A DNA stretch of 64,000 nt from Candidatus Nitrosocosmicus arcticus (GCF_007826885.1 NZ_ML675591.1:1-64000); one strand, 5' to 3'; positions 12,782-54,188 are shown, counted from the first letter of the stretch. Numbers and translations are program-made. Notes: a model not told the origin generated them from the sequence alone.

Positions 12782-12803
12782 GCTGCAGTAATATGTGAAA
12801 TAG

Positions 12804-13226: not shown

Positions 13227-13244
13227 TTATTTTACCATTTTACT

Positions 13245-13260: not shown

Positions 13261-13283
13261 GTTTCTTTTGTAAACCTATACCT

Positions 13284-14090: not shown

Positions 14091-14114
14091 GATTACCAAG
14101 AGAAGTAATTTTAG

Positions 14115-14567
14115 ATGAAAATTTCATTTGGCAAAAAGTCCTCTGATGATACAAAAAAAACTATCCTCTTTGTATGCGTTCAAAATGCAGGGAGAAGTCA
14201 GATGGCAGAAGGTTTCTTTAGAAAGTACGCACAAAAACGCTACGAAACGGTTAGTGCAGGTACAGTTCCAACTTCTCAAATTAATCCGATTACAGTAGAG
14301 GTCATGAAAGAAGTTGGAATAGATATCAGCAGTCAAAAGCCTAAAGATTTGACAGAAGATATGATGCGAAATGCAACAACAATAGTCAATATGGGTTGTA
14401 TGGACGATAAATACTGTCCTGCATTATTTTTATCAAAAGTTATAGACTGGGGTATTGAAGATCCAAAAGATAAGCCAATAGAGAAAGTAAGAGAAATAAG
14501 AGATGAAATTGAAAAAAGAGTATTGGAAATAATTGAGTCTACCAAAGATAATGCAATTCCAGTTTAA
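14115..14567 (+). CDS. arsC: Arsenate reductase, LMW-phosphatase (thioredoxin-linked) type
   Basis: 150 aa. Phosphatase-like P-loop C21-VQNAGR27-S (CX5R) at the start of the domain, redox cysteines C95 and C101 (NMGCMDDKYCPA), and DWGIEDPKDK containing the general-acid Asp. This is the ArsC class that reduces As(V) to As(III) using three cysteines and thioredoxin. Residues 1-14 are a short basic extension. It feeds arsenite to ArsM and to the channel or permease. Lies between arsM and the aquaporin in one operon. Confidence 0.93.
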   Translation: MKISFGKKSSDDTKKTILFVCVQNAGRSQMAEGFFRKYAQKRYETVSAGTVPTSQINPITVEVMKEVGIDISSQKPKDLTEDMMRNATTIVNMGCMDDKYCPALFLSKVIDWGIEDPKDKPIEKVREIRDEIEKRVLEIIESTKDNAIPV

Positions 14568-14622
14568 AGTAACTCTTTATATAGTTCAGTTAAAGTGATA
14601 TCCAAGTAACTAGCAAATAATC

Positions 14623-15315
14623 ATGTCAAAGGAATCTACTTTAGAATCTGTAATTGACAAACTGTCTACTAATCAAAAAAAGTTTGTCGCAGAAATCATA
14701 GGAACATTTATTGTTGTTGTTTTGGCAACAGGTTCAGTAGTTATTGATGCAAAGTTAAATGGTATTCTTGGATTACCATTTGTTGCATTTGCTCCTTTTG
14801 TGGGTGTTGCAATAGGTGTATATCTTTTTGGAAAAATCTCAATGGCTCATTTTAATCCTGCAGTATCAGTTGGATTTTTGATAACAAAGCACATCACAAG
14901 AAAGCTAATCGCTTTGTACCTATTAGCGGAGATTGTTGGTGCTTTTCTAGCAAGTCTTTTTGTAAGTATTGTAATAGGCAAAGAGGCAAACCTAGGAGCT
15001 AATGCGCCAAATTATTCATATCCTTTACCTCTAATATTTGGAATCGAAGTTTTGGCATCAGCTCTTTTAATGGCAGTGATATTGACTGTTGTTTATAGAA
15101 AAGGTTTGAAAGGATTCAGTGGTATTGTAATTGGAGGGATTGTTGGATTAGATATTTTGTTTTTGGCTTTTATATCTGGAGCGTCTATGAATCCTGCACG
15201 TTCGTTAGCGCCTGCATTGTTATCTGGGGTATGGACCGATTTATGGTTGTACTGGACTGCAACATTTGTTGGTACCTCAGTGATTGCATTGATATATAGA
15301 AAAAAGTTTGAATGA
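14623..15315 (+). CDS. MIP-family channel (aquaglyceroporin/AqpS-like)
   Basis: 230 aa, six hydrophobic helices with both pore NPA boxes: AHFNPAVSVG (78-80) and SGASMNPARSLAPAL (190-192). The first two NPA-flanking residues are typical of aquaporin/aquaglyceroporin. In ars operons such channels (AqpS) let arsenite leave the cell down its gradient after arsenate reduction; that role is inferred from its position 55 bp after arsC. Water or glycerol transport cannot be excluded. Confidence 0.9.
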   Translation: MSKESTLESVIDKLSTNQKKFVAEIIGTFIVVVLATGSVVIDAKLNGILGLPFVAFAPFVGVAIGVYLFGKISMAHFNPAVSVGFLITKHITRKLIALYLLAEIVGAFLASLFVSIVIGKEANLGANAPNYSYPLPLIFGIEVLASALLMAVILTVVYRKGLKGFSGIVIGGIVGLDILFLAFISGASMNPARSLAPALLSGVWTDLWLYWTATFVGTSVIALIYRKKFE

Positions 15316-19211: not shown

Positions 19212-19262
19212 TATTTTCGGTGGGATTAAACCCCGTATGGTATAAGGGTTCGGTGGAAACAA
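19212..19262 (+). repeat. tRNA-Lys-end repeat site, double core
   Basis: First core eroded (TTTTCGGTGG, 19214), second GGTTCGGTGG at 19247-19256, 33 bp apart, joined by GATTAAACCCCGTATGGTAT. The interval 19005-19468 has no gene. Confidence 0.85.
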
Positions 19263-20753: not shown

Positions 20754-20836
20754 GTTACTAAAATAGGTAGTTAGTTTGGTGGGATTAAGTCCCTCATGGT
20801 ATAGGGGTTCGGATGTTTCGACTATGATTAACTGCC
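20754..20836 (+). repeat. tRNA-Lys-end repeat site, double core
   Basis: GTTACTAAAATAGGTAGTT, cores AGTTTGGTGG (20773) and GGTTCGGATG (20806), 33 bp apart, then TTTCGACTATGATTAACTGC. The DNA from here to 21153 is repeated at 38093-38490, so site, spacer and gene were copied as one unit. Confidence 0.85.
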
Positions 20837-25687: not shown

Positions 25688-25776
25688 GTTACTATAAATA
25701 GGTAGCTGGTTCGGCGGTATTAAGTTCCGTATACTATGCGGGTTCGGTGGTATGTGAAACAAATTTGACTCCTTCC
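25688..25776 (+). repeat. tRNA-Lys-end repeat site, double core, best match to the tRNA end
   Basis: GTTACTATAAATAGGTAGCT, core GGTTCGGCGG (25708), then core GGTTCGGTGG (25741-25750) 33 bp on, tail TATGTGAAACAAATTTGACT with CAAATTTG centred 13 bp past the core. Bases 25727-25750 are identical to 54088-54111, which are the 3' end of the tRNA-Lys gene and 12 bases of its outside flank. Only feature in 25593-26009. Confidence 0.9.
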
Positions 25777-26009
25777 TATCACTCTAATTGAATAAAAACA
25801 ATCCAACAGAATTTAAGAATTAAATGATTTGTAGATCTAGTTAATTCTCTCTATATGATCTTCTTCATGGTAAATCATATGAACTAACCTATCCTATAAT
25901 ATGAACAAAGAAATTTTGATTTTTACGATATTAGTGATCGAGTAGTATTTTAGAACGGAAATATCTACAATAAAAGTTTTATCTATACGCTCATTATTTA
26001 TGATCTATA

Positions 26010-26546
26010 ATGAAAGCATTGTCAAATATCGAATTTTTCGGATTATCATTTGTGCTGATAACAATATTGGCTTTAGAGATCAGTCTTCATTCTGATGCTT
26101 TCAGTCAGGAAAACAAGAAAAAGTATGACATGGTATTACTAAGTCAAAATTACAATAGCAAAGGATTTGCCGATGAAATTGTTGGTGAGATTTTAAATAA
26201 TGGAACAGACATTGCAAAATCAGTCGAAATATCTGTAGTCTTTTCTAATGATAGTGGAATTATAGGTTCCGAATCAAGTCGCCTTGATCCTACCACTATG
26301 AACTCCGGGGATAGATCGGTGTTTACTTTACAACTAGTTGACGAAGTCATTAAGAGTAATGCTGAGAGATACGAATTTACCATTAAATGGCAGGATGAGC
26401 ATTCAATAGACTATTTTGCGAGATTGACAGGAGGAGAGATAGCAGAAAATAGTGGTGGAGATGACAGTGGTGGAGATGACAGTGGTGGAGATGACAGTGG
26501 TGGAGATGACAGTGGTGGAGATGACAGTGGTGGAGGAGGCAACTAG
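26010..26546 (+). CDS. Secreted FxLYD-like domain protein with SGGDD repeats
   Basis: 178 aa. Signal segment (GLSFVLITILALEISLHS), one beta-sandwich domain (VGEILNNGTDIAKSVEISVV, TMNSGDRSVFTLQL, YEFTIKW) that resembles FxLYD/DUF3426 domains, and a tail of five SGGDD units coded by an exact 15-bp tandem repeat at about 26453-26530. The repeat is prone to copy-number change. Single-gene segment between sites 25688 and 26829. Confidence 0.8.
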   Translation: MKALSNIEFFGLSFVLITILALEISLHSDAFSQENKKKYDMVLLSQNYNSKGFADEIVGEILNNGTDIAKSVEISVVFSNDSGIIGSESSRLDPTTMNSGDRSVFTLQLVDEVIKSNAERYEFTIKWQDEHSIDYFARLTGGEIAENSGGDDSGGDDSGGDDSGGDDSGGDDSGGGGN

Positions 26547-26828
26547 GCGATAAATAAGACTTTTTCCAATTATTTCTAAATAGTAATCATTAAAAACTCG
26601 AAATAGTGGTGGAGCACAATCTAGTTTCGGAGAAAACTCATTATGACTTTCCCATAATACAAGGAAACTCCACAGAATAGGATAGCAGTGCAGCAGTGTA
26701 GTGTCCTAAAAATTTTAACTGTTTGAGATAGCCAGCCAGACGAAGCAATCACATATTCTTTTTGCTAAGTACCATACAAAATAAAATAATCTACTAACGT
26801 AAGCACCAACACGATTGAATGTTATGTC

Positions 26829-26890
26829 GTTACCTAAATAAAAATCTGGTTCGGTGGTAAATGAAACAAATCTGACATGTTTCATTTACC
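26829..26890 (+). repeat. tRNA-Lys-end repeat site fused to a hairpin
   Basis: GTTACCTAAATAAAAATCT, core GGTTCGGTGG (26848-26857), tail TAAATGAAACAAATCTGACA. Bases 26856-26867 (GGTAAATGAAAC) pair perfectly with 26879-26890, an 12-bp stem with an 11-base loop. The stem lies at the end of the minus-strand gene 26882 and could act as its 3' structure. Confidence 0.8.
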
Positions 26891-31252: not shown

Positions 31253-31306
31253 AATCTAAAGCAGGTAGCGGGTTCGGTGGAACTCATGAAGATATCCACA
31301 TGAGTC
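31253..31306 (+). repeat. tRNA-Lys-end repeat site, GATATCC tail
   Basis: AAGCAGGTAGCG, core GGTTCGGTGG (31271-31280), AACTCATGAAGATATCCACA. Confidence 0.85.
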
Positions 31307-31485
31307 ACGCCTTGAAATGGGGTTATTTTTTTAGATAAGGTTCCTCATATGGATAAAAAAGACAAGGGTAAGAAAAGGGGATTTAATTTTAGTATTGATG
31401 AATTTAAAAATTTGAGTTTGTATAACTCTAAAAGGAAAAACCAATGGGCTAAATTTTTTAGTCTTTGATTTTTCTTATGTCGTTG

Positions 31486-32082
31486 TTAATGATTTGTGGA
31501 CTTTGTGGTAGTAGTGGTAGATGCGTTTACGTTTGAATTGGCGGCTACATCTTTAACTTCTGCTGCTAATTGTCTTGAATTTTGTTCAAACACTCTTGCG
31601 GTGTTTACTCCCATGTTTGATACGTGTCTTGAAACATCTTTTGTTTGTTGTAGTACTGGTTTCCATGCATCAAGGGTAGAGAAAATAACGTTGTTTGAAA
31701 GTCTAATAGCTGATACCGTATTGTCTGCAACATTACTCACAAGTGTTGTATATGCTTTAGCTGCTGCATCAGGAGAACAGAAGTTGGTAACTAATCCATT
31801 GTAGACCTCATTATATGGTCTCCATGCGGATTGAAGAGAATTGACAACTTGTTTTTGAGAATCTATATATTCTTCTGAAATCTCTTTTGCAGTCTGTAAA
31901 GATTGTTCTTGATAACTATTTACAATATCATTAATTCTTGGAATTTGTTTTCTTGATTCATCTATTGATTTTTTGATATTATCTTTAGTTTCATCAAATG
32001 ATTGGTTAACGGATTCTTGGAAATTATTTTGTTCATTGGTATTATTTGAATAATTTTGGTTAGTTTCTATTTTCTTTGACAT
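31486..32082 (-). CDS. Phasin-like coiled-coil protein, copy 1
   Basis: 198 aa, Asn/Gln/Ser-rich head (MSKKIETNQNYSNN) and long amphipathic helices: DNIKKSIDESRKQIPRIND, YIDSQKQVVNSLQSAWRPYN, NVADNTVSAIRLSNNVIFST, and a Thr-rich end. The SLQSAWxP and long helices resemble phasins that coat polyhydroxyalkanoate granules, which soil Nitrososphaerota make; assignment is tentative. Over 95% identical to 35697, and the flanking DNA on both sides out to the repeat sites is also conserved, so the whole segment was duplicated. Confidence 0.7.
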   Translation of the reverse strand: MSKKIETNQNYSNNTNEQNNFQESVNQSFDETKDNIKKSIDESRKQIPRINDIVNSYQEQSLQTAKEISEEYIDSQKQVVNSLQSAWRPYNEVYNGLVTNFCSPDAAAKAYTTLVSNVADNTVSAIRLSNNVIFSTLDAWKPVLQQTKDVSRHVSNMGVNTARVFEQNSRQLAAEVKDVAANSNVNASTTTTTKSTNH

Positions 32083-32280
32083 ACTATCTATTAGGTACCG
32101 TACTATATAAACACCGGTATCAAACGGTTTTTAATGCCTAAAATTGACAAAACATGACCACAATTGGTGAAATGATTAAAAATGCGGATACATGTCTAAG
32201 ATTCATATCTAATCAATGATAAATCGTCTCTATTTCAATTATATTAATCAGTTATTATAATTATTTATATATCTATATCG

Positions 32281-32336
32281 TTACTATAAATAGGTATCGG
32301 ATTCGGTGGAAACACTCACAGATCTGTGAGTAATCC
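32281..32336 (+). repeat. tRNA-Lys-end repeat site, CACAGATCTGTG-type tail
   Basis: GTTACTATAAATAGGTATCG, core GATTCGGTGG (32301-32310), then AAACACTCACAGATCTGTGA, palindrome centre 13 bp on. Rest of 32083-32587 is shared spacer of the phasin segment up to here, then nothing. Confidence 0.85.
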
Positions 32337-32587
32337 GTCAGAAGTTTCGCTAGAACATCCATCAACATTCAATGTAAAAAATGTCTTTTCATTTAAGATA
32401 TTGTAATTATAGAGTGTAGTCTTTCGTAAATGTTCAATAAAAGAAATATTAGTTGGTATCTCAAAAGAACAATTTTAATATCAACCTATTGATCCAATGA
32501 TAATGCTTGAGTATACATATTACATCAAAAGTGTTCAAAAAAATAGTATGTTTAGTGTATAAACGAATATTATTAATATTTATTTAT

Positions 32588-32989
32588 TTATTTATTACCT
32601 GCTGTCATTATCTTTTTTAGTTCTTCATAAAATTCCTTGCTTGGAGATGAAGTGGATAATGATGTATGCCATTGTTTTTCAATTGTTTTAACCGCTAATT
32701 CGGCCGCTTTGTCTATATTATTTCCCCAATCTCTTTCAATTATCTTCTTTATCTTCTCTACGTGAACTTCCTTTAAAGCTTCAAAGAATGCGCTTTCCAG
32801 TAATTTTTTTGCACCTTCAATCGGATCACCGTTGCAACCTGAACAACTAGCATTACTACCATGATGCATTGTTTCACATCCACAACTATTGCATTCGCAT
32901 GTATCTGAATACTTGGTATGGCCATGGTACGTTGATCCTTCTCTTCCATAATGAACTTCGCAATTTGAATCACATTGATTTCCTGTCAT
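32588..32989 (-). CDS. Cys/His-rich metal-binding-like protein, copy 1
   Basis: 133 aa in two parts. Residues 1-56: NQCDSNCEVHYGREG, CECNSCGCETMHHGSN, CSGCNG, about ten Cys and six His, a likely metal cluster or zinc region. Residues 57-133: a helical domain almost residue-identical to the paralogue 42049 (LLESAFFEALKEVHVEKIKK, AAELAVKTIEKQWH). Divergent from the HxlR gene 33079 over 89 bp that holds a TATA box and CTTACC repeats. Probably a metal-responsive protein controlled by that regulator; function unknown. Confidence 0.75.
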   Translation of the reverse strand: MTGNQCDSNCEVHYGREGSTYHGHTKYSDTCECNSCGCETMHHGSNASCSGCNGDPIEGAKKLLESAFFEALKEVHVEKIKKIIERDWGNNIDKAAELAVKTIEKQWHTSLSTSSPSKEFYEELKKIMTAGNK

Positions 32990-33021
32990 CTATAAATCAC
33001 TTTGTAATATCTACTATCAAA

Positions 33022-33060
33022 AGGTAAGTATTTAAATTGGTAAGTGATAATATAGTAAGT
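33022..33060 (-). promoter_or_regulatory. Divergent promoter with repeated ACTTAC operator
   Basis: Read on the minus strand: ACTTAC, 9 bases, ACTTACCAATTTAAATA, CTTACC. TTTAAATA serves gene 32588. TAATATAG (33047-33054) on the plus strand is 25-30 bp from the TTG of the regulator. The same three-block arrangement precedes the paralogue at 42049. Confidence 0.6.
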
Positions 33061-33078
33061 GGATGAGATTAGGGTAAG

Positions 33079-33507
33079 TTGACAAAAGTAGATACCTTAA
33101 AACAAAATATGAGAATAGATGGAATGGAATGTAAAAGCTGTCCTGTTTTCAATACGTTTAACATAATTGGTAAAAAATTTTCACTTTTAATACTTCGGAA
33201 CATGATCTATAACAGTCAGAGAAGATTCAACGAATTTTTAAATTCTATTGAAGAAATCAATCCTAAAACATTGTCAATTCGTCTAAAAGAAATGGAAAAA
33301 GATGGAATCATAAGACGGCAAATATATCATGAGACTCCCGTTAGAATAGAATACCACCTAACTCAGAAAGGTAGAGAATTACGACCGATATTGGAGCAAA
33401 TGGCTTTATTTTCTCTAAAATATTGTTGTGATCAAATATTTGAAAATCCTGATCCTGTCAAGGTTAGCAAGATATCGGCCAATTCATTTGGAAAATATCG
33501 CGTATAA
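33079..33507 (+). CDS. HxlR-family winged-helix regulator
   Basis: 142 aa from TTG 33079, placed for a leaderless start by TAATATAG 25-30 bp upstream; ATG 33109 is the alternative. wHTH: FNIIGKKFSLLILRNMIYN, NPKTLSIRLKEMEKDGIIRR, RIEYHLTQKGRELRPIL. A Cys pair CKSCPVF near the N-terminus and CC at about 124 could sense thiol or metal stress. Divergent from 32588, which it likely controls. Related to 12804. Confidence 0.88.
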   Translation: MTKVDTLKQNMRIDGMECKSCPVFNTFNIIGKKFSLLILRNMIYNSQRRFNEFLNSIEEINPKTLSIRLKEMEKDGIIRRQIYHETPVRIEYHLTQKGRELRPILEQMALFSLKYCCDQIFENPDPVKVSKISANSFGKYRV

Positions 33508-33733: not shown

Positions 33734-33820
33734 TTACTAAATCAGATACCTAGTTTGGTGGGATTAAGTCCCGTATGTACAAGGGTTCGGGGGCATGTGA
33801 AACAAATTTGACTCAAGTAA
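33734..33820 (+). repeat. tRNA-Lys-end repeat site, double core
   Basis: GTTACTAAATCAGATACCT, cores AGTTTGGTGG (33753) and GGTTCGGGGG (33785), tail CATGTGAAACAAATTTGACT with CAAATTTG centred 13 bp on. Only feature in 33508-33981. Confidence 0.85.
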
Positions 33821-35350: not shown

Positions 35351-35420
35351 GTTACTAAAATAGGTAGCTGGTTTGGTGGGATTAAGTTCCGTATGGTATG
35401 CGGGTTCGGTGGTTCTCAAG
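35351..35420 (+). repeat. tRNA-Lys-end repeat site, double core
   Basis: GTTACTAAAATAGGTAGCT, cores GGTTTGGTGG (35370) and GGTTCGGTGG (35403), exactly 33 bp apart; tail not of a recognised type. Rest of 35235-35696 is the conserved spacer of the phasin segment. Confidence 0.9.
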
Positions 35421-35696: not shown

Positions 35697-36296
35697 TTAA
35701 TGATTTGTAGAGTTTGTTGTAGTAGTGGTAGATGCGTTTATGTTTGAATTGGCTGCTGCATCTTTAACTTCTGCTGCTAATTGTCTTGAATTTTGTTCAA
35801 ACACTCTTGCGGTGTTTACTCCCATGTTTGATACGTGTCTTGAAACATCTTTTGTTTGTTGTAGTACTGGTTTCCATGCATCAAGGGTAGAGAAAATAAC
35901 GTTGTTTGAAAGTCTAATAGCTGATACCGTATTGTCTGCAACATTACTCACAAGTGTTGTATATGCTTTAGCTGCTGCATCAGGAGAACAGAAGTTGGTA
36001 ACTAATCCATTGTAGACCTCATTATATGGTCTCCATGCGGATTGAAGAGAATTGACAACTTGTTTTTGAGAATCTATATATTCTTCTGAAATCTCTTTTG
36101 CAGTCTGTAAAGATTGTTCTTGATAACTATTTACAATATCATTAATTCTTGGAATTTGTTTTCTTGATTCGTCTATTGATTTTTTGATATTATCTTTGGT
36201 TTCATCAAATGATTGGTTAACGGATTCTTGAAAATCATTGTTATTATTGTTATTATTATTTGAATAATTTTGGTTAGTTTCTATTTTCTTTGACAT
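35697..36296 (-). CDS. Phasin-like coiled-coil protein, copy 2
   Basis: 199 aa, over 95% identical to 31486 from residue 20 onward; the N-terminus differs by an Asn run (NNNNNNNND). Same features: long helices, KQVVNSLQSAWRPYNEVYNG, MGVNTARVFEQNSRQLAAEV, Thr-rich end. The near-identical synonymous positions imply recent duplication or gene conversion. Alone between sites 35351 and 36493. Confidence 0.7.
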   Translation of the reverse strand: MSKKIETNQNYSNNNNNNNNDFQESVNQSFDETKDNIKKSIDESRKQIPRINDIVNSYQEQSLQTAKEISEEYIDSQKQVVNSLQSAWRPYNEVYNGLVTNFCSPDAAAKAYTTLVSNVADNTVSAIRLSNNVIFSTLDAWKPVLQQTKDVSRHVSNMGVNTARVFEQNSRQLAAEVKDAAANSNINASTTTTTNSTNH

Positions 36297-38092: not shown

Positions 38093-38176
38093 ATACTATA
38101 AGCAGGTAGTTAGTTTGGTGGGATTAAGTTCCGTATGGTATAAGGGTCCGGATGTTTCGACTATGATTAACTACCA
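38093..38176 (+). repeat. tRNA-Lys-end repeat site, double core
   Basis: Cores AGTTTGGTGG (38112) and GGTCCGGATG (38145), 33 bp apart, then TTTCGACTATGATTAACTAC. Copy of the site at 20754 together with 300 bp after it. The interval 37933-38490 holds only this duplicated spacer. Confidence 0.85.
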
Positions 38177-38990: not shown

Positions 38991-40316
38991 TTATTGTTGA
39001 GCTAATGCGTTGTTACCTTCGTTTTCTTGGTTTTGGGAGCTAAGGTTGTTGCCAGAGTCTTCTGTATCATCACCTGACACTACTTGACTGTTCTGTTTTG
39101 AAGATTGAGATTGGCCTATACCTTGGTTAGCACTGTTGCCACCGTTGTCGTCGTCATCACCATTGTTTCCTCCACTTTGTGCTGCTGCGTTGTTACCTTC
39201 GTTTTCTTGGTTTTGGAAGCTAAGGTTGTTGCAGGAGTCATTTGTATCGTCACCAGAAACACATTGTGAGTTTTGTCTAGATGATTGAGATTGGCCTATA
39301 CCTTGGTTAGCACTGTTGCCACCGTTGTCGTCGTCATCACCATTGTTTCCTCCACTTTGTGCTGCTGCGTTGTTACCTTCGTTTTCTTGGTTTTGGAAGC
39401 TAAGGTTGTTGCAGGAGTCATTTGTATCGTCACCAGAAACACATTGTGAGTTTTGTCTAGATGATTGAGATTGGCCTATACCTTGGTTAGCACTGTTGCC
39501 ACCGTTGTCGTCGTCATCACCATTGTTTCCTCCACTTTGTGCTGCTGCGTTGTTACCTTCGTTTTCTTGGTTTTGGAAGCTAAGGTTGTTGCAGGAGTCA
39601 TTTGTATCGTCACCAGAAACACATTGTGAGTTTTGTCTAGATGATTGAGATTGGCCTATACCTTGGTTAGCACTGTTGCCACCGTTGTCGTCGTCATCAC
39701 CATTGTTTCCTCCACTTTGTGCTGCTGCGTTGTTACCTTCGTTTTCTTGGTTTTGGAAGCTAAGGTTGTTGCAGGAGTCATTTGTATCGTCACCAGAAAC
39801 ACATTGTGAGTTTTGTCTAGATGATTGAGATTGGCCTATACCTTGGTTAGCACTGTTGCCACCGTTGTCGTCGTCATCACCATTGTTTCCTCCACTTTGT
39901 GCTGCTGCGTTGTTACCTTCGTTTTCTTGGTTTTGGAAGCTAAGGTTGTTGCAGGAGTCATTTGTATCGTCACCAGAAACACATTGTGAGTTTTGTCTAG
40001 ATGATTGAGATTGGCCTATACCTTGGTTAGCACTGTTGCCACCGTTGCCACCGTTGTCGTCGTCATCATCATCGATGTTTTTAGAACCATAGTTACCATT
40101 ATAGTCCTCGTCGTAGTGTTCCCTTAGGTTTTTGTCACATGCTTCTTTGTTATCGTCATAATAATCTTCATCGTCCTTACATTGATCTTTGTCCACACCA
40201 TAATGTGCTAATGCGCTTGGAAAACTGGATACAACCGGACCGATTGTCATAATTGCTGCAAGCATTGCTACAACTAATACTATCGAAGTTGTTTTCGTGT
40301 TGTTTAACTTTAACAT
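38991..40316 (-). CDS. Secreted protein with six 60-residue repeats
   Basis: 441 aa. Signal segment (SIVLVVAMLAAIMTIGPVVS, then SALA), an acidic Cys-containing head (KDQCKDDEDYYDDNKEACDK), then five identical 60-residue units and a sixth diverged one. Each unit: NSANQGIGQSQSSRQNSQ, CVSGDDTNDSC, NNLSFQNQENEGNNAAAQSG, GDDDD. The GxxNxAxxQ-type spacing resembles curlin repeats, so an amyloid-like or adhesive fibre is possible (inference). Each unit has a Cys pair (CVSGDDTNDSC); the last unit has lost both. ATG 40316 is the clear start. Confidence 0.85.
   Translation of the reverse strand: MLKLNNTKTTSIVLVVAMLAAIMTIGPVVSSFPSALAHYGVDKDQCKDDEDYYDDNKEACDKNLREHYDEDYNGNYGSKNIDDDDDDNGGNGGNSANQGIGQSQSSRQNSQCVSGDDTNDSCNNLSFQNQENEGNNAAAQSGGNNGDDDDNGGNSANQGIGQSQSSRQNSQCVSGDDTNDSCNNLSFQNQENEGNNAAAQSGGNNGDDDDNGGNSANQGIGQSQSSRQNSQCVSGDDTNDSCNNLSFQNQENEGNNAAAQSGGNNGDDDDNGGNSANQGIGQSQSSRQNSQCVSGDDTNDSCNNLSFQNQENEGNNAAAQSGGNNGDDDDNGGNSANQGIGQSQSSRQNSQCVSGDDTNDSCNNLSFQNQENEGNNAAAQSGGNNGDDDDNGGNSANQGIGQSQSSKQNSQVVSGDDTEDSGNNLSSQNQENEGNNALAQQ
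39121..40050 (-). repeat. 180-bp coding tandem repeat, five near-perfect copies
   Basis: Blocks of 180 bp repeat base for base (39181-39360, 39361-39540, 39541-39720, 39721-39900, 39901-40050), with an older diverged copy at the C-terminal end (about 39001-39180). Almost no differences, also at synonymous sites, so the array expanded recently. Confidence 0.95.
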
Positions 40317-41368: not shown

Positions 41369-41456
41369 GTTACCAAAATAGGTAGCGGGTTCGGTGGGAT
41401 TAAGTCCCGTATGGTATAAGGGTTCGGTGAAAAGAGTCAAAGATCTGTGAGTAATT
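41369..41456 (+). repeat. tRNA-Lys-end repeat site, double core, AGATCTGTG tail
   Basis: GTTACCAAAATAGGTAGCG, cores GGTTCGGTGG (41388) and GGTTCGGTGA (41421), 33 bp apart, joined by GATTAAGTCCCGTATGGTAT; tail AAAGAGTCAAAGATCTGTGA. Only feature in 41218-41563. Confidence 0.9.
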
Positions 41457-41563
41457 CGATATTCTTCAATTAATTGGATGAATCTATTTGGTGTATAAAT
41501 TATTACCAATTCGAGATCAATTCTATTATATACGTTTTTGAGATAATACTATTATGATAGTAG

Positions 41564-41854: not shown

Positions 41855-41958
41855 TGTATCTTTTTTTATAATATTTTGGACTCATAAGATTGTTTTCAAA
41901 TCTTTTTCCATTTCTTTTAGACGAATAGAGAATATTGTAGGATTTATTTCTTCTATCA

Positions 41959-42016
41959 ACTTACCAATCTCTCATCTACTTACAATTTTATCACTTACCA
42001 ATTTATATACTTACTT
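41959..42016 (+). promoter_or_regulatory. Promoter with repeated ACTTAC operator
   Basis: AACTTACC, ACTTAC, then ATCACTTACCAATTTATATA and CTTAC. TTTATATA (42002-42009) is the TATA box about 40 bp before the ATG at 42049. Same layout as 33022-33060. Confidence 0.6.
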
Positions 42017-42048
42017 TTTTATAGTAACTATTACAAAGTGATTTATTG

Positions 42049-42456
42049 ATGACAGGAAATAATCAATGTGATTCAAATTGCGAAGTTCATTATGGAAGGG
42101 AAGGAAGAGGGTCTTCCCATCACGGTCATAACAAGTGTTCAGATATGCATGAATGCAATAGTTGTGGATGTGAAACAATGCATGGTAGTAATGCCAGTAG
42201 TTCGTGTTGCAACACCGATCCAATTGAAGGTGCAAAAAAATTACTGGAAAGCGCATTTTTTGAAGCTTTAAAAGAAGTTCATGTAGAGAAGATAAAGAAA
42301 ATAATAGAAAGAGATTGGGGAAATAACATAGACAAAGCGGCCGAATTAGCGGTTAAAACAATTGAAAAACAATGGCATACATCATTATCCACTTCATCTC
42401 CAAGCAAGGAATTTTATGAAGAACTAAAAAAGATAATGACATCTGGGAATAAATAA
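42049..42456 (+). CDS. Cys/His-rich metal-binding-like protein, copy 2
   Basis: 135 aa from ATG 42049 (a TTG one codon earlier is in frame). Head: NNQCDSNCEVHYGREGRGSS, HECNSCGCETMHGSN, SSCCNTD; tail from DPIEGAKKLLESAFFEALKE to the end nearly identical to 32588. The head has diverged much more than the tail, which suggests that the tail fold is under constraint and the metal head is adapting. Here no HxlR gene is adjacent, so it may be controlled in trans by 33079 through the shared operator. Confidence 0.75.
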   Translation: MTGNNQCDSNCEVHYGREGRGSSHHGHNKCSDMHECNSCGCETMHGSNASSSCCNTDPIEGAKKLLESAFFEALKEVHVEKIKKIIERDWGNNIDKAAELAVKTIEKQWHTSLSTSSPSKEFYEELKKIMTSGNK

Positions 42457-42508
42457 ACTTAATGGTATTCCTATAATGCATTAAACATACTATTTTTTTT
42501 CAAGTTCA

Positions 42509-46555: not shown

Positions 46556-46731
46556 GAGTAATTATAATCCTTATTCAAAAACACATGGCAACTAGAATAT
46601 CGTCAAATTAAAAATCTAAGTGAAATGAGCTTGAGCGATTGATTATATTTTTAATTCAGTAAACATTGTAAGACGATATCTTTTAGTATCATTATAAAAG
46701 ACTAAAATACTATGCACTGGCACAAGATACT

Positions 46732-46893
46732 ATGACTCTAAGAATAAAATGTCAACAGTGTGATTTTAACCATATTTCTAATATCTACCGATTGGGTGAT
46801 CATAATTTCTATAAGAATTTTTCAAATCTAGAAAGCTGTCCTAGTTGTGGACATGTATCTAAATCTGTTGAATCGGAATATATTATTAATTAG
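46732..46893 (+). CDS. Small zinc-ribbon protein
   Basis: 53 aa: MTLRIKCQQCDFNHISNIYR, a spacer, and LESCPSCGHVSKSVESEY. CQQC and CPSC pair as in rubredoxin-like ribbons. TATAAAAG lies about 40 bp upstream. Plausible real gene, too short for usual finders. It sits directly before the dead integrase. Confidence 0.55.
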   Translation: MTLRIKCQQCDFNHISNIYRLGDHNFYKNFSNLESCPSCGHVSKSVESEYIIN

Positions 46894-47030
46894 TCAGGGT
46901 ATTTCATTGGCGTAATAGGCGTTACATTAGAAACAATAAATAAAATAGCGCAGATGAAATATACAGGAACTTTCTAGGTTACCTTTCTTTTTTCCTAACT
47001 GTGATTTTCACAGTGTTTTTTATAATTTGC

Positions 47031-47378
47031 ATGGCTATTCAACAAATAGTAACTTATCATGAAATCCTAGAGAAGGCAAGAAACTTTTCTAACAATAAAC
47101 TTTTACTTAGAAGAATTCAAGCTTAGTTAACAGAATCATATTATTATACTGTCAGAAGGGCATTTGATAAAGCCGGAAAGAAGATGAATAAGTGCTATTG
47201 TCGCAAGGTCTTTGCCACCTACTTGAGAAATAAAGATATTGAGCCAGAGACTATTGACTTGTTGTAAGGAAGGATACGCGGTTCCGTATTTGTGAATCAT
47301 TACTATAGACCCGACATAAACGAAATTATTGCAGAGTATAAGGCTTGTATTGCGTTAACTGATGAAGGAGTTGACTAA
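47031..47378 (+). pseudogene. Tyrosine recombinase, C-terminal part with two stops
   Basis: 116 codons in one frame from ATG 47031 to TAA 47376. The catalytic half of an archaeal-type integrase is clear: YYTVRRAFDKAGKKMNKCYC then RKVFATYLRNKDIEPETIDL, L-stop-GR (TAA 47265 replaces the usual Gln of LLQGR), GSVFVNHYYRPDINEI with the Tyr nucleophile. Another stop (TAG 47124) lies near the front, and the N-terminal half is missing. Lies 290 bp left of repeat site 47666, where an integrase gene would be expected relative to its att site. Confidence 0.8.
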
Positions 47379-47429
47379 TTAAGTACATATTTATTCCCAC
47401 TACATAGTAATATTCTAGTTCTAATCGGT

Positions 47430-47651
47430 ATGAGTTGTAACGGTATATGCGTTAGATATAAAGCAAAAAGGAATCATGAGGTGCCATCTAGGTATAAGGA
47501 AGGACAGAAAAGATGTAGCACTTGTGAGATATTTATAAAATGGGACAACAATGCCTATTGTCCCTGTTGTAATTATAAATTAAGAACTAGGTCATTTCGC
47601 GGTTGGGAAATGAGGAAAAGGTATAGAGAAGAGACCATTAAGCGGTATTAA
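47430..47651 (+). CDS. Small zinc-finger protein of archaeal accessory regions
   Basis: 73 aa: MSCNGICVRYKAKRN, QKRCSTCEIFIKWDNNAYCP, CCNYKLRTRSFRGW, basic end (MRKRYREETIKRY). Three Cys pairs, two zinc sites possible. Proteins with this CxGICxRYKAK start are multi-copy and frequent beside mobile DNA in Nitrososphaerota as I recall them. Here it lies between the broken integrase and repeat site 47666, so it may belong to the mobile element. DNA binding is inference. Confidence 0.75.
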   Translation: MSCNGICVRYKAKRNHEVPSRYKEGQKRCSTCEIFIKWDNNAYCPCCNYKLRTRSFRGWEMRKRYREETIKRY

Positions 47652-47665
47652 TCATTCACCACTCT

Positions 47666-47701
47666 ATATTCGGTGGGCTTCGAATCCATGAGGTATATGG
47701 G
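47666..47701 (+). repeat. tRNA-fragment-like repeat site
   Basis: ATTCGGTGGGCTTCGAATCC then ATGAGGTATATGG. Its reverse complement is a recognisable tRNA T-arm (GGATTCGAAGCC) with CCACCGAAT acceptor end, more tRNA-like than most copies. Confidence 0.6.
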
Positions 47702-47795
47702 ATCTCTTACTTTTATTTATGATTTTACTAATCTAAAATTTATCAATTTGATTTGGAATTATTTTTTAAAAAATTCTCATATTTTTTCAATACCT

Positions 47796-48284
47796 CTAAT
47801 TGCTTTTCTCTGCGCGGAATTTTTTTGCGTAATTGTTTAACTTATTCAACGCATCCTCTAGTGAAATCCATTCTTTTTTCATCAGGTATGCAGTAACTAA
47901 AACACCCGTCCTTCCTCTTCATGCATTACAATGAATAAGGACTGGTTTTTCATTTTCGACATGCTTGTCTATATAGTCAGTTGTTTTTACCAAGACTTCT
48001 AGGTTTGGCGCATCATGGTCTTCTACTTTTATGTGGAGGCAGTCTACAACTATTTTCTTGTCATGACCCTCCGTTTTCTTCGTTTCAAAATATTTTGAAG
48101 GTAATAGTGTTTCTCTTATAGTGACTATACTTCTAATACCTTGATCCAATGTCCATTCAAATTCTCTATGAGTTTTTAAGAGTCCAGAGCCAGCCAGTTT
48201 ATTAGGGATAACCCAATTAAAATTAGATGGTTTACGTAAGAGTCTTCCATAAAACCATCTGTATATGTCACCAATGAGAGCCAT
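47796..48284 (-). pseudogene. Dual-specificity protein phosphatase, nonsense in catalytic loop
   Basis: 163-codon frame with a single TGA (47919-47921). N-terminal part: NWVIPNKLAGSGLLKTHREF, GIRSIVTIRETLLPSKY, VLIHCNA; then TGA; then RGRTGVLVTAYLMKKEWISL, EDALNKLNNYAKKFRAEKSN, TAG. The active-site loop should be HCxxGxGRTG; the stop replaces a Gly codon (GGA to TGA) at the glycine after HCNA. Everything else is intact, so this is a very young pseudogene or a sequence error. Confidence 0.85.
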
Positions 48285-48348
48285 GTGGATTCATTTCTTA
48301 TGGAATTGTAAATATATAATAATACTTTTGATTGCCTTCCGGGTACAT

Positions 48349-49520
48349 TCATTTAATAAAGTAAAACCCAAGAGCTATTGCAATAAAAAAGCCTACGAGT
48401 ATCACCCCCTGAAACCAATTCCCTCTTCCGCCATTAGTTATAAAATACACTAAAAATATTGAAGCAAACATGGTAATTAATTCAAACGGGGTAAAAATTA
48501 ACGGAAATGATACTCCCATTACCATTGCAGCAACAATGATAACGGGTAACACAAATAATGCAATCTGAGAAGCGGAACTGACAGCGATTCCTAGAGCCAA
48601 ATCCAATTTTCCTTTTTTGCCATCATCATAGAAGTGATTTTTTCAGGGACATTTCCTACAATACCAATTACAATAGCGCCCACAAATAACACTCCTAGAT
48701 TAAGATTAGTAATGGTCTCTTCCACAGTACTGACTAGTATTTCACTTATTATTGCAAATCCTATCATACTTATGGCTAGGATACCAATTGCTTTCTTCTT
48801 GCTCCATATATGTGGATTATCCGTTTTTTCAGTAGTCGGAATCGCATCATTTGAATTAGGCTTTGACATCAGATCTGTTTCATTGGTAGAGGCTAAAAAG
48901 AGGTCTTTGTGTGTCCTAAATGTAAAAAACAAGCTTAATACATACACAGATAAAAGTAATATTGCAAAAGAGTTACTTAGAATCATAACCATAAAATTTG
49001 TTGAATCCATTTGATTTTCTGTACTAGCTTCTGTGACTGTTAAATTTCCTAAAATCAATATAGTTGGAATCGAAAGAATGGTAATGGCTATGAGTAACAG
49101 CGTAATATGAAATACAATATTTTTTCTATTGAAAATTTGCTCTCTAAACTTTAACCCGCCCACAATCAAACTCAAGCCAAAGACCAACAATAATTGGCCT
49201 AAGATGGACCCAACTAAATTTGCCCTAACTAAGTCGAATAAACCCGCTTGAAAGGCTACTATCGATAATATTATCTCTGGAGTATTTGAGAATGTGACAT
49301 TGATTAAGGAACCTCCCGTATTCCCGTAATGCTCCGCCAGGTGCTCTGTAGTGTCTCCTACTAATTTGGCCAATGGAATTAAGGCTAGCACTGATAGTAC
49401 AAACAATACTATGTTGTCGATAGAGAAGAAAACATCCAAAATAATTACAATTGGTACGAAAACTAAGAGGATGTAGAATACATTGGATATGTTAAAGAGA
49501 TTATTTAATCGACTAGACAA
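48349..49520 (-). pseudogene. Ca2+/H+ (CAX-type) exchanger, one-base frameshift
   Basis: Two adjoining frames: 49520-48591 (309 aa) and 48606-48349 (85 aa). The first carries helices 1-7 with the first exchange motif NVTFSNTPEIILSIVAFQAG and the second GNVPEKITSMMMAKK, the second begins LDLALGIAVSSASQIALFV and ends the protein. Family proteins read AxKxKLDLALGIAxxSSxQIA continuously, so the break is a lost A in an A6/A7 run at about 48612-48617. Both ion-binding Glu motifs are intact. Could also be a homopolymer sequencing error. It would export Ca2+ against protons. Confidence 0.85.
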
Positions 49521-49730
49521 TAAATTAAACTATTTCAATACCCTAATTGTGGGCATATAAATATATCAAGATTGAATCAAAAGAAATTATTAAAAATATA
49601 AAAACATATCTGACAACAACAATTTCTTGTTGTTAACCTATTTTTCCTGTAGTCTTGCATCCAATCCCCTACTAAAGCTAAAGCAGTTTATTGCCTACAT
49701 TATTCCTACTTTATTAATTTTGGAATATCT

Positions 49731-50163
49731 ATGTATTTAAAGTATATTATCAAAATCTACCAGGAAACACACTTTCATATTCCTGTTATCCTTTGCTATC
49801 CTATTCACATATGCAAACACAGGATCAGTATGTGCTCAAAATCAAAACCAATCATCAACGTCCCCTGAAAATCAGACTATGGCTACCATTTCAGATAGTC
49901 CTCAAACTATGCTAGCAAATCAGACAACCGTACCAGCAGAACAGACTACTGTAACTGTTAATCAAACAACTGAACCGATTCAGGATCAATCTCAACTTCA
50001 GCCATTAGGAAATCAGACTATAACTCCAGAAACTGGAAATTTATCAAACATTGAAAATAAGACAATGGTACAAGCTACTGGACCCGCTACCACCGTTATT
50101 GCAAATAAGACTACAGTTCCTTTTAATCAAACCACTATAGGAACAGGCAACGCGACTAACTGA
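49731..50163 (+). CDS. Secreted Thr/Gln-rich protein, uncertain start
   Basis: A 94-codon frame begins at ATG 49879, but in the same frame upstream lies a full signal peptide (RKHTFIFLLSFAILFTYAN, then VCAQNQNQSSTSPENQ) without an ATG; the nearest ATG (49731, MYLKYIIKIY) is one base out of frame. So either a frameshift at about 49760 broke the gene or a rare start is used. Mature part: repeated NQTT(V/T) units (ANQTTVPAEQTTVTVNQTTE, NKTTVPFNQTTIGTGN), heavily N-glycosylatable. Exported mucin-like protein. Confidence 0.55.
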
Positions 50164-50886
50164 TTCGCAATCAACTTCCCAAGCAAGCAACCATATTTTT
50201 TTTATGATTTCTGTTCTTAAATGAATGTATTTAATTTCTAATGTATTTATCTGGTGTATGGTATTATGGGCAATAGAAGAACTATAGAGCGAGTTGCTTT
50301 AATTGCAACTTGTTAGGTGTATTGGTTAATATTTTTTAATTGGTAACGTTTAGCTCCATGGCAACAACGATTATCAACTACAGGTCAGTGAAAGACATGC
50401 ACCCATCAACTATGACATAAAAGATCCAACTGCCAATAATTTATGATTCCAATAAACAGAAGATCTAATATCTTATACGATTTTTCAGTGTAAGATAAGC
50501 CTAGTCACCTAACAACCTTAACCTACTCATAACCCACAATCAGAAGAAAAAATAACATGAATTAGGACAGACAGTCTCTTACAAAGTCATTCCTTATGAT
50601 AGAAAGTTAAGACAATTGTTGTTAGAAGGAGCAAAAGTAACAAGTCCAGACATCCTTTGTAATAAAGAATAAAACTTGGTTACAAAAAGATAAAACTATC
50701 GTACCTTTTTAATTAGAACAATAATCCATGAAACTAAAAGAAATGGAGGAAAACTCAGGAATATGATTAAAACTCATTTTCTTTCGTTGTAAATGTTTAA
50801 TGGATGGATTAATAGCAACGGCGATAGATCTGAAAAACTGAGAGCTGTCTACTACATCTAAAAATTCTAGTACAATGAGAAAGGAA
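50164..50886. other. Interval with one relic frame
   Basis: Startless frame about 50556-50672 (+) reads VSYKVIPYDRKLRQLLLEGA, KVTSPDILCNKE, coding-like but with no start and no recognised family. Otherwise nothing. Confidence 0.3.
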
Positions 50887-51066
50887 TCAATTTGAAGTGG
50901 AAATATTACGTATCAGCAGATTTGAGTTATTTTGATTTCCCATCAAATCAGGAGTCAAATTATTGAAGATCTTTTCAATTTCATCTTGGGGGATTAGTCC
51001 TTGATTTAGATTGACAATTGGTGAGAAAAATAGTGAGAAGGCCAAAACAAATATTACATATTTCAT
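50887..51066 (-). CDS. Small secreted protein
   Basis: 59 aa: signal peptide MKYVIFVLAFSLFFSPIVN, then LNQGLIPQDEIEKIFNNLTP and a short Asn-rich end. TTTAATATA at about 51086-51094 is 25 bp upstream of ATG 51066, so leaderless. Not reported by length-filtered gene finding. Function unknown. Confidence 0.6.
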   Translation of the reverse strand: MKYVIFVLAFSLFFSPIVNLNQGLIPQDEIEKIFNNLTPDLMGNQNNSNLLIRNISTSN

Positions 51067-51369
51067 AAATAAGGTTTGAAACGATATATTAAATAGATGC
51101 TATACAAAAGTTTGATAAAATTGTACTTAATAAAACTGACCTGACAATCAAAGAGATAACAATAACAATAATTTTTTATTTAATGAAAAATTCCATAGAT
51201 ATGGAGATTAAAAAAAGACAACTTACATACTAAAAAGTTCGGTCTTTAGACGAAAACATAACTTTTGTCATATTAATAATCAGTTAATTAATTAATGGTG
51301 AAAATGCTTTTTACTAGTAATAATGAACTCATCTATAAAAAAGATTGTTTGCTACTGGTAGTAAACTGA

Positions 51370-51561
51370 TTAAAATAACTTCTGTGAAAAAGAAACGTTT
51401 GCAAAATTATACAATGATAAGCATTTTTCTTCTATAGATTCACCGTCTGCTTTAATAAAATTCAGGAATCTTTGTAACATAACGGGATATTGTCTTTTGA
51501 CGTCTTTTGATTTTAAGGCATATATGAAATTTTTATAGGGTGTAGATTCTATTATCTGCAA
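51370..51561 (-). pseudogene. Integrase N-terminal fragment
   Basis: 63 codons: MQIIESTPYKNFIYALKSKD, VKRQYPVMLQRFLNFIKADG, ESIEEKCLSLYNFAN, then an unrelated short tail. This is the SAM-like core-binding domain start of archaeal tyrosine recombinases (the ALKSxxxKRQYPxxLxxFL pattern); the catalytic domain is absent. It begins 36 bp from repeat site 51597, again the expected place of an integrase next to its att site. Confidence 0.6.
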
Positions 51562-51596
51562 CTGTATATATCATGTAGTCCAAAATTACTATATTA

Positions 51597-51650
51597 GTGT
51601 ATATATCTACACGGGTTCGGTGGGACGAGTGTGAAATTTCACACTAGTTC
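51597..51650 (+). repeat. tRNA-Lys-end repeat site, perfect GTGTGAAATTTCACAC tail
   Basis: GTGTATATATCTACAC (itself almost palindromic), core GGTTCGGTGG (51614-51623), GACGAGTGTGAAATTTCACA: 16-bp perfect palindrome centred 13 bp past the core. Confidence 0.9.
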
Positions 51651-51703
51651 ATGGCAATTACTTAAAAAATTTGAAAATTGATTTGTATTTAATTTACAAG
51701 ACA

Positions 51704-51907
51704 TTAGCCTATCTGAATGGGTTGACCACAGAACTGACAATAAGTTGCTTCATTATATTCTACAAAATCATTATACGGTTCTAAATTATGCGTTTCGTTG
51801 TGTATTAGCATTTTAACCCAAACTCTACCGCTCATATTGTCAATTCTAAGAACATTGTCATTTATCATGCTCTCCATTCCATCACAACAGCGACCTATGG
51901 TTGACAT
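51704..51907 (-). CDS. Small Cys-containing protein
   Basis: 67 aa: MSTIGRCCDGMESMINDNVL, RVWVKMLIHNETHNLEPYND, YCQFCGQPIQIG. The terminal CQFCG with the CC near the start could bind zinc. Family not recognised. In the last segment before the tRNA. Confidence 0.6.
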   Translation of the reverse strand: MSTIGRCCDGMESMINDNVLRIDNMSGRVWVKMLIHNETHNLEPYNDFVEYNEATYCQFCGQPIQIG

Positions 51908-52098
51908 ACATCATGTTTAACACAGATCCTAAAATCTTTTAAGATAATCTTGATTTAATTTTTAAAATACTACATCTTTAGCATGACATGGATAACAATT
52001 TGAATCAGATACAGATAAAGCGATGTTAATGAGTCGGACAGTTTTATGTCGCAGGAGACGCCATTCATTTATAAGAAACTTATTTAAATAATCCATAT

Positions 52099-52479
52099 TT
52101 GTCCCGGGAAGAGGAATACAAGACTTGTAATATTGATAGAATTGCTAGGAAACATGTTCAACAGGAGCAGGGACATTTATTGATTCATCTCTATAAACAA
52201 ATGGACTTCAAGGAACTGTCTAAGATAACTAACATGACAGAACTTCAATTATTAGGCAAGATTACGATATTAGAAGCAGCAGGCTTTATCAAAAGCGTAG
52301 AGAGTGAAGTAAAGACGGAAGGGAATATCGTTGAAATATATAAGAAATATATTATTACGGAAAAAGGAAGAAATGAAATTAGGTATATGAATCTGAGTAA
52401 TGAGTTGAATCGTCAGAACCAAAAGAAGAATAAACCCATTAGAAATCTACTTAGTCTTTTGAATAAGGCCCTTACCTGA
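52099..52479 (+). CDS. Winged-helix-like protein
   Basis: 126 aa from TTG 52099. Helical N-terminal part, then MDFKELSKITNMTELQLLGK, ITILEAAGFIKSVES (helix-turn-helix), EIYKKYIITEKGRNEI (wing). Layout of small archaeal MarR/PadR-like regulators. Basic C-terminal tail. Target unknown. Confidence 0.6.
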   Translation: MSREEEYKTCNIDRIARKHVQQEQGHLLIHLYKQMDFKELSKITNMTELQLLGKITILEAAGFIKSVESEVKTEGNIVEIYKKYIITEKGRNEIRYMNLSNELNRQNQKKNKPIRNLLSLLNKALT

Positions 52480-52605
52480 TGCTCGTTTGTTTCTGTCTGT
52501 GGTTTGATTATCTCTGATTTTACAGGAATTATTAAGTTATTCAAGATTTCAGGTTCTAATTTCTCGTGTGCGAAAAAAGGATTTGTGGAGCTCCTTATTT
52601 TCAAA

Positions 52606-52977
52606 TCAGATTCGATTGGTGAACAGATTATTAATCCCCAAGATGAATTTAAAGTAAAACTCCGGAGTTTTGAATGATGCTGCTAATACTAGTTCTATTT
52701 CTCGATCCTTCCCATCATTATAAAATTCAGAAAGTTTTGTTATTACTCTTTCATTCTCGGAATCATCCCAAACAGTTGCTTCAGTCTCAACGGCAAATTG
52801 TGGATTAAGATTCTTGTAGTAAATATTCAACTTATTATAAAAATACGTAGAAATAGGTTGATTTCTAAATATTTCATCATGTCTGTATTTTCTATCCTCG
52901 CGAAGTGAAGATTCAAGATGAAGAATGACTGAATCCACAATTTGCTCAGTAATTAACAAGTATTCAAATAAATTCAT
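52606..52977 (-). CDS. Hypothetical protein
   Basis: 123 aa, acidic/Tyr/Phe-rich helical protein: LITEQIVDSVILHLESSLRE, YFYNKLNIYYKNLNPQFAVE, LVLAASFKTPEFYFKFILG. No family recognised. Its start overlaps the end of the decayed carboxylase frame by 14 bp, so it could be a fusion remnant rather than a gene in its own right. Confidence 0.5.
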   Translation of the reverse strand: MNLFEYLLITEQIVDSVILHLESSLREDRKYRHDEIFRNQPISTYFYNKLNIYYKNLNPQFAVETEATVWDDSENERVITKLSEFYNDGKDREIELVLAASFKTPEFYFKFILGINNLFTNRI

Positions 52978-53677
52978 TTATTTCATTCCTTTGATTGATC
53001 ATAGGATGTGTAAATAAGAGTGAAATACAGATTGATGCCTCATAAGATAGGACTCGTAGGACTTGAATTATCAATATAGAGCAGAAATACCTAATTTTAG
53101 TATCAATAGGCTTCGAGTTCCAATATGCAATTAATAATGAAGACAGACGATATAAACCGAAGTTCCGCAAATTATTTTCAGAAGGTCCAAAACCCGCATT
53201 AATTTTAGCAATCACCCCTGATGTTATTGCATTCTTGAGAAAAATATCACCATAACCATCCAGGAATGATACATCTTCCTGGATCCTTGCCCCGCCCAAT
53301 TCAAGAATACCGATAATAAGACATCCTCCCTTTAGTGCATGTTCCATAACTTTAGAGACTTTTTTTCCAGCCATTTCTTCTAGCGATCCACCCAGAACAG
53401 TAAAATCATAAACGCAGATGAACACTTGTCTACCGCTAATGGTTCCAAAGCCAGTTACCAAACCATCACCATAATATTTTTTTATGTCAGGATCATATCC
53501 TCGATGAGTTACAAATCTGTCAATTTCGGTAAATGTATCGGGATCTAATAAAAGATTTATTCGCTCTCTCGTAGTTAGCTTCCCTTTGGAATGCTGAGAT
53601 TCAACTTTATCTGGACCTCCACCTGCTTCAGCACTGTGTTTTCGGTCGTAATATTGTTTTAGTTTTTCCTCACGCAT
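52964..53677 (-). pseudogene. Acyl-CoA carboxylase carboxyltransferase subunit, truncated
   Basis: First about 165 residues are the N-terminal half of PccB/AccD: YDRKHSAEAGGG, QHSKGKLTTRERINLLLDPD, TEIDRFVTHRG, DGLVTGFGTISGRQVF, DFTVLGGSLEEM, GGARIQED, SGVIAKINAGFGP. Intact proteins have about 515 aa with a second half that is missing; after GFGPS the frame goes on into unrelated sequence (ENNLRNFGLYRLSS). Several conserved positions have changed (LELGGARIQED for DSGGARIQEG). A relic of the acetyl-/propionyl-CoA carboxylase of the 3-hydroxypropionate/4-hydroxybutyrate cycle; a working copy must be elsewhere. Confidence 0.85.
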
Positions 53678-53788
53678 ATATACTGTTTTTAACGCTAATC
53701 AGTGTTAAATATAGATTTTGTTATGAATAAGTGCGGATTCATTTTAGGAACCATATGTCTTCAATTAGTCCATTCCTCAGAAATAACT

Positions 53789-54010
53789 TTACCATGCGAA
53801 TTCATAATAAATTGAAATCCAATATGTCGAATTTTTTCCAAAGAATTTTGCCATATTAATTAAGGCTTTGATATTCTGATTTTGATAACTTTCGGATGTA
53901 TTAACGGATCTCAAGTATAAATAAAAATCATAGACTAATTTGGAATTATTCTCATTACCTAATAATTGAATATTATTTAGAGTGGTCTCTAATTTTACTG
54001 GAATATCCAA
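53789..54010 (-). pseudogene. Integrase N-terminal fragment beside the tRNA
   Basis: 73 codons: KLETTLNNIQLLGNENNSKL, VYDFYLYLRSVNTSESYQNQ, NIKALINMAKFFGKNSTYW. This is the typical start of Nitrososphaerota tyrosine recombinases (NSKLxYxFYxYLRSxxTSExYQNxNIKALINxAKFxG), cut after about 65 residues. It lies only 90 bp from the tRNA-Lys end at 54100, as expected for an element integrated there. Confidence 0.65.
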
Positions 54011-54087
54011 GACCTCCTTTCATTACGATTATCGGCAATATTCATCGTTCTACGACGAATGTAATAAGGAATAACTAGTATATAGAC

Positions 54088-54111
54088 CCGTATACTATGC
54101 GGGTTCGGTGG
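54088..54111 (+). repeat. tRNA-Lys 3' end with outside flank, probable attB
   Basis: These 24 bases (CCGTATACTATGC then GGGTTCGGTGG) recur exactly at 25727-25750. The part from 54101 is the acceptor stem and start of the T-stem, the part before it is outside the gene. It is the rightmost site and the only one attached to a complete tRNA. Confidence 0.85.
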
Positions 54112-54188
54112 GATTCGGACCCACGACATTTTAACCTCTTTCGATCTGGTTAAGAGCCAGACGCTCTACCTGGCTGAGCTACGAACCC
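54100..54188 (-). tRNA. tRNA-Lys(CTT) with intron-like insert
   Basis: Read on the minus strand: acceptor GGGTTCG pairs with CGAACCC (7 bp), D-stem GCTC/GAGC, anticodon stem TCTGG/CCAGA around CTCTTAA, so anticodon CTT; T-arm GTGGG-TCCGAAT-CCCAC. Discriminator G at 54100; CCA not encoded. Between anticodon stem and T-stem (54125-54144) there are 20 bases instead of about 5. TTAACC in the anticodon loop is complementary to GGTTAA in this stretch, so a non-canonical archaeal intron of about 15 bases is likely. A class II variable arm is excluded by the Lys anticodon. Confidence 0.92.

Follow-up and report, generated by a model that had tools for sequence, protein, structure and literature searches.

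The tRNA-Lys(CTT) gene in the 64,000-nucleotide stretch of DNA analyzed here (the window), which corresponds to contig C14 of a 2.64-Mb Nitrosocosmicus genome, borders an archaeal additive genomic island that is genus-wide in Nitrosocosmicus and behaves in an integron-like manner. The island is probably anchored at this tRNA gene and stacked by integrases, with cassettes that mostly lack an integrase of their own and would be moved in trans. The host is a soil ammonia-oxidizing archaeon.

An oriented array of sites

Homologs of the tRNA-Lys(CTT) gene are held by 13 of the 15 genomes of the genus, and the far side of the gene is collinear backbone in the genomes compared. The near side carries the following features:

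278-54118 (+), the part of the oriented array that lies in the window, with 24 site positions at a spacing of 0.6-9.2 kb (median 1.45 kb)
54099-54188 (-), tRNA-Lys(CTT) gene (ARAGORN), intron-containing, 90 nt, with the core site at its 3' end
54056-54118 (+), empty attachment site comprising the D arm (CTAGTATATAGACCCGTATACTATGCG), the core GGTTCGGTGG at 54102 and the tRNA
41369-41461 (+), array site comprising the P arm, a core at 41388, a 33-bp module, a second core at 41421 and a palindromic right arm
9098-9131, 19214-19247, 20773-20806 and 25708-25741, first four of the core-doubling 33-bp modules
33752-33784, 35370-35403, 38112-38145 and 41388-41421, other four of these modules

The exact core occurs 14 times on the + strand of the window and never on the - strand, and TTCGGTGGGATTCG, with up to two mismatches allowed, occurs 7 times as compared to 0.23 expected in shuffled sequences. 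Across the genome, a 17-bp site pattern matches only C14, the end of C4, C20 and C21, always on the + strand and in one shared orientation; array stretches of this kind are where breaks in an assembly would be expected. In the complete genome G013, about 34 cores over 100 kb lie at the same tRNA, in a single orientation. Arrays in G007 and G005 have sparser and more degenerate sites (those of G007 were missed by a pattern allowing three mismatches and were recovered with a profile), and sites point at the tRNA in all three of these complete genomes. The search for a left border of the island was unsuccessful: on that side, G013 (220 kb) and the C4 end (about 77 kb) share no collinear backbone. 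Viral contigs yielded no array sites with the strict pattern.

Each site has its core between a left arm and a right arm, and in some sites a 33-bp module bearing a second core follows the first core. The right arms are of several kinds, several of them palindromic. The left arm is P in most sites and otherwise D, f2, g or h, several of these lying beside integrase genes or remnants. The inner part of the 33-bp module is similar to the D arm, pointing to a composite attP or to a mini-unit of 33 bp.

Recombinase remnants and their relatives

The first-pass annotation had read three places in the window as decayed tyrosine recombinases lying 40-290 bp from a site. Homology to integrases confirms all three, the measured distances are 289, 53 and 92 bp for fragments 1, 2 and 3, respectively, and when all collected integrases were searched against the entire window, these three places and no others were recovered.

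53789-54010 (-), fragment 3, about 60 aa from the N-terminus of a tyrosine recombinase of the tRNA-Lys(CTT) type, assigned by homology to intact integrases
51370-51561 (-), fragment 2, N-terminus of an integrase from a second family of the tRNA-Lys(CTT) type, assigned by homology
51614-51650 (+), att site comprising the left f2 arm GTAGTCCAAAATTACTATATTAGTGTATATATCTACACG, the core GGTTCGGTGG and the palindromic right arm GACGAGTGTGAAATTTCACACTAGT
47031-47378 (+), fragment 1, C-terminal part of an integrase of the SSV type (PF16795), interrupted by two in-frame stops
46604-47661 (+), segment holding fragment 1, with a 95.2% identical copy at G000:C4 that shares both stops
47667-47706 (+), site of another type, TTCGGTGGGCTTCGAATCCATGAGGTATATGGGATCT, resembling the 3' end of tRNA-Arg(TCG)

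Fragment 3 is 81% identical to the N-terminus of an intact 457-aa integrase of G007 (E=2e-29) and 78% identical to that of a 451-aa integrase of G003 (E=1e-27). These two intact genes start about 90 bp from the tRNA-Lys(CTT) core, and the D flank beside them is the same as here. Genes of this type adjoin tRNA-Lys(CTT) with the N-terminus toward the core in G000, G003, G007 and G012, the last being frameshifted. A dN/dS of 0.11 separates the G007 and G003 genes. While fragment 3 itself comprises only the N-terminus, its full-length relatives carry the catalytic R-K-YxxR-W-Y residues, with R186, K214, Y302xxR305, W327 and Y337 invariant among the intact orthologues. The top Foldseek matches of an AF2 model of this type are all tyrosine recombinases, which is supportive only given the low confidence of the model (pLDDT 63); a sequence search of the PDB with the profile of this type found nothing. 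Judging from these homologs, fragment 3 is a real remnant of a tRNA-Lys(CTT) integrase.

For fragment 2, identity is 60% to the N-terminus of an intact integrase of G013 (447 aa), 91% to a fragment in G014 and 70% to one in G001. The G001 gene lies beside tRNA-Lys(CTT) with its N-terminus facing the core and is interrupted by an assembly gap, and a G006 gene of this type with a complete catalytic domain lies at an array site. Intact relatives carry SSGIR, HGFRKFF, GHD and SYYKP motifs that hold the catalytic residues. The f2 arm recurs nearly unchanged in G014:C189, and a related arm lies at the tRNA in G001. These observations identify fragment 2 as a real remnant of a tRNA-Lys(CTT) integrase. 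The core of its site lies at 51614 and not at 51597, as had been proposed.

Pfam and PHROG scans returned no Pfam match and nothing useful from PHROG for fragment 3, and no useful match in either for fragment 2; both were kept as recombinases because homology to intact integrases settled the matter where these profiles gave nothing. Their target tRNA is assigned from the position of their relatives. A third integrase, with an open frame, lies at tRNA-Lys(CTT) in G006, and in most of the eight further integrases inspected, the N-terminus is near the 3' end of a target tRNA. The P arm of most sites differs from the arms beside fragments 2 and 3 and lies beside an integrase remnant only once, in G036, at a distance of 127 bp; it is through this one remnant that the P arm may be linked to the fragment 2 family as its putative integrase.

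Profile and pattern searches found no intact tRNA-Lys(CTT) integrase in the genome of the window. The first-pass annotation had suggested looking for an intact homolog elsewhere in the genome. The nearest intact relative of fragment 3 there lies on C6 and shares 63% identity with the G007 enzyme; it adjoins another tRNA, whose core also differs (3' end GGGCCCGTGGGG versus GGGTTCGGTGGG). In G007, genes for an MCM helicase and a DNA polymerase B (PolB) adjoin the intact fragment 3-type integrase. The G007 island also encodes an ApeA-type HEPN defense protein near this element (L122:18085-19401).

Fragment 1 belongs to another family. It alone was recovered by profile searches (PF16795, E=3e-4 and 21.1 bits, which is below the 27-bit cut-off; PHROG 5127 integrase, E=1e-4), and it shares 49-54% identity with C-termini of intact integrases of the same genus in alignments of 61-79 aa. 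The region of the first catalytic Arg is missing, and the YCRK and HYYRP motifs are retained, such that both the family homology and the catalytic residues of the preserved part are those of a tyrosine recombinase. Since both copies of its segment share both stops, fragment 1 was dead before the segment was copied. The site of fragment 1, located 289 bp downstream from where the gene ends, is similar to tRNA-Arg(TCG) (targeted by L074) and does not have a tRNA-Lys(CTT)-specific layout. The family of fragment 1 has its att sequence within the N-terminal portion of the gene, the open frames of L006 and L070 starting with a stretch that reads like a translated tRNA end. The layout of SSV-type (suicidal) integrases has been reviewed (PMC8371274); the C-terminal part of these integrases (PF16795) is homologous to fragment 1, which differs from them in its stops and in having no tRNA or att sequence in the expected N-terminal position.

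We rejected fragment 1 as a builder of the array based on its different family, a site on the wrong side of the gene, the other type of that site and its decay prior to duplication. It is a passenger, cargo from a different, SSV-type element. The integrase and attP layout previously proposed for all three fragments thus holds for fragments 2 and 3, whose relatives lie at tRNA-Lys(CTT), and fails for fragment 1. The same is true of their role as array builders, which stands in part for fragments 2 and 3, given that the P arm is not theirs and that most cassettes have no integrase. Separately, sites with the P arm and a tRNA-Arg(TCG)-like core, GGCCCGGTGGGCTTCG, occur at G000:C4 179043-185600 (L021 9043-15600), and a sister line of cassettes may use this second tRNA.

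Cassette insertion and alternative explanations

A natural comparison of an empty and an occupied site is provided by the genome of the window, in which D, core and tRNA follow each other directly, and by G013, in which the order is D-core-cassette-core-cassette-core-tRNA. In G013, 2702 bp lie between the D flank and the tRNA, and the 16-bp core is duplicated. Neither of the two inserted cassettes encodes an integrase; they hold a methyltransferase-like ORF of 226 aa and a gene for a secreted protein of 240 aa. That the youngest insertions lie nearest the tRNA, as the first-pass annotation had supposed, is borne out by these two additional cassettes. Presence and absence of cassettes at this locus also differ in G003, G005 and G007. 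Across the array, direct repeats of the tRNA 3' end separate cassettes, and growth is from the tRNA, as in additive islands. Two cassettes illustrate reshuffling:

31271-32300 (+), cassette with a 198-aa ORF and no integrase, present at two positions of the G013 array with different neighbors and with ends 7-11 bp from cores
25741-26848 (+), cassette with a 178-aa ORF, present whole in the G013 array (135193-136317 of the G013 stretch)

Of the ends of shared segments, 16% lie no more than 20 bp from a core, as compared to 1.3% for random positions; this comparison is descriptive since the segments are not all independent. Many shared segments end away from cores, indicating a further contribution of homologous recombination and IS insertion to the region.

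We propose that at least two families of tyrosine integrase (the fragment 2 and fragment 3 types, with a third, intact one in G006) would act at the tRNA. The attP core of an incoming circle would recombine with the GGTTCGGTGG core that lies within the tRNA gene. Because every such insertion would restore the tRNA and shift the old flank outward, sites would stack one way with the newest at the tRNA. Since most cassettes encode no integrase, we infer that the mover acts in trans, with integrases of helper elements mobilizing integrase-less cassettes; the presence of MCM and PolB beside the intact G007 integrase makes an autonomous helper plausible. In the window, helper elements may have been reduced after insertion to their tRNA-proximal ends, comprising an arm and an integrase N-terminus. 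A more specific version, which we advance only tentatively, is that Nitrosocosmicus has an integron-like capture system of its own, in which integrase-less P-core-P' cassettes are stacked and reshuffled at tRNA-Lys by integrases supplied in trans from co-resident MCM/PolB elements.

The array might instead be a pile-up of complete, integrase-bearing elements that inserted themselves at the tRNA and were worn down to stubs of 0.6-2 kb, with no mobilization in trans. Integrase remnants adjoin several arms (fragments 2 and 3 here, G013 at 51162, G012 and G036), and tandem arrays from re-use of one site are known (PMC6563490). We nevertheless consider this explanation unlikely, as the same integrase-less cassettes of 1.0-1.1 kb occur whole in another species, at other positions and with ends at the core, and as the two cassettes inserted at the G013 tRNA are themselves integrase-less.

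It is far less probable that the sites are a dispersed REP/MITE-like repeat, between copies of which cassettes spread by homologous recombination. The segments that end off the core, and segments within the G013 array that are 98-99.8% identical and look like IS copies, would fit such a repeat, but the confinement of the 17-bp pattern to four contigs on one strand, the common direction of sites in three complete genomes and the identity of the core with the tRNA 3' end argue against it. Least probable of all is a true archaeal integron with an IntI and folded attC sites: despite cassette-sized units in one orientation and shuffled order, a variable palindromic segment by a conserved core and the existence of archaeal integrons (PMC9668308), the core coincides with the acceptor/T-stem end of a tRNA gene, hairpin potential appears weak by folding z (mean of about -1.4 on both strands), array ORFs lie on both strands (35 on + and 48 on -), the integrases found are of the tRNA type and not shown to be IntI, and no IntI with attI was found by the array, where G013 has no PF00589 or PF16795 match and the window has the three remnants.

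Several features of the cargo in the window were also observed. Two near-identical proteins of 198-199 aa (31489-32082 and 35700-36296), with no Pfam match, belong to the most widely shared cassette. One large unit (9593-15312) encodes a multicopper oxidase, a methyltransferase, a protein with a low-molecular-weight phosphatase/arsenate-reductase fold and a MIP channel, resembling an arsenic gene set. A 441-aa secreted protein (38994-40316, -) contains a 180-bp tandem repeat of about 6 units. A pair of genes encoding 133-136 aa with a Cys/His-rich start (32537-33088 and 41950-42499) is 87% identical and in opposite orientation despite the one-way sites. Closer to the tRNA, a carboxyl transferase (52964-53677, -) is truncated to the first 140 of 493 positions of PF01039 and a dual-specificity phosphatase (47919-48284, -) is apparently truncated, both being cases of gene decay near the tRNA.

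Relation to known systems

Additive flexible genomic islands have been described in Alteromonas (fGI1; PMC4119200) and Ca. Actinomarinales (PMC7771536), and fGI-2 of Ca. Methylopumilus sits at tRNA-Lys(ctt) (PMC10872708). These bacterial islands share with the array a conserved tRNA target, stepwise addition of cassettes, direct repeats of the tRNA 3' end and adaptive cargo. The array differs from them in being archaeal, in having about 34 cores in one genome, in its conserved arms beyond the core (P, D, the 33-bp doubling module and palindromic right arms) and in the sharing of one tRNA by several integrase families. Integrated elements of Thaumarchaeota likewise have tyrosine integrases, short att sequences at tRNA 3' ends and tandem re-use of sites, although the elements in that survey are typified by their integrase (PMC6563490); a search of its main text for Nitrosocosmicus and tRNA-Lys gave no description of the array. 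Integrons, including archaeal ones, similarly feature a one-orientation array of reshuffled, integrase-less cassettes (PMC9668308), whereas here the target is a tRNA gene, no IntI or attI was seen and attC-like folding appears weak. Tycheposons are also anchored at tRNAs and carry a tyrosine recombinase and cargo, but are described as single large cargo elements of 4-200 kb (PMC10872708), as opposed to the many small cassettes found here.

Additive islands with tRNA-end repeats in bacteria and re-use of one site in archaea are thus already known. We found no description of the Nitrosocosmicus tRNA-Lys(CTT) array in the open-licence papers searched. The array represents a concrete route of gene gain in globally important ammonia oxidizers; among its cargo are a multicopper oxidase, transporters and oxidoreductases, together with an arsenic-type gene set. 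Cassette capture in Archaea outside of integrons also becomes testable here, given the candidate integrases, the defined core and the natural pair of empty and occupied sites.
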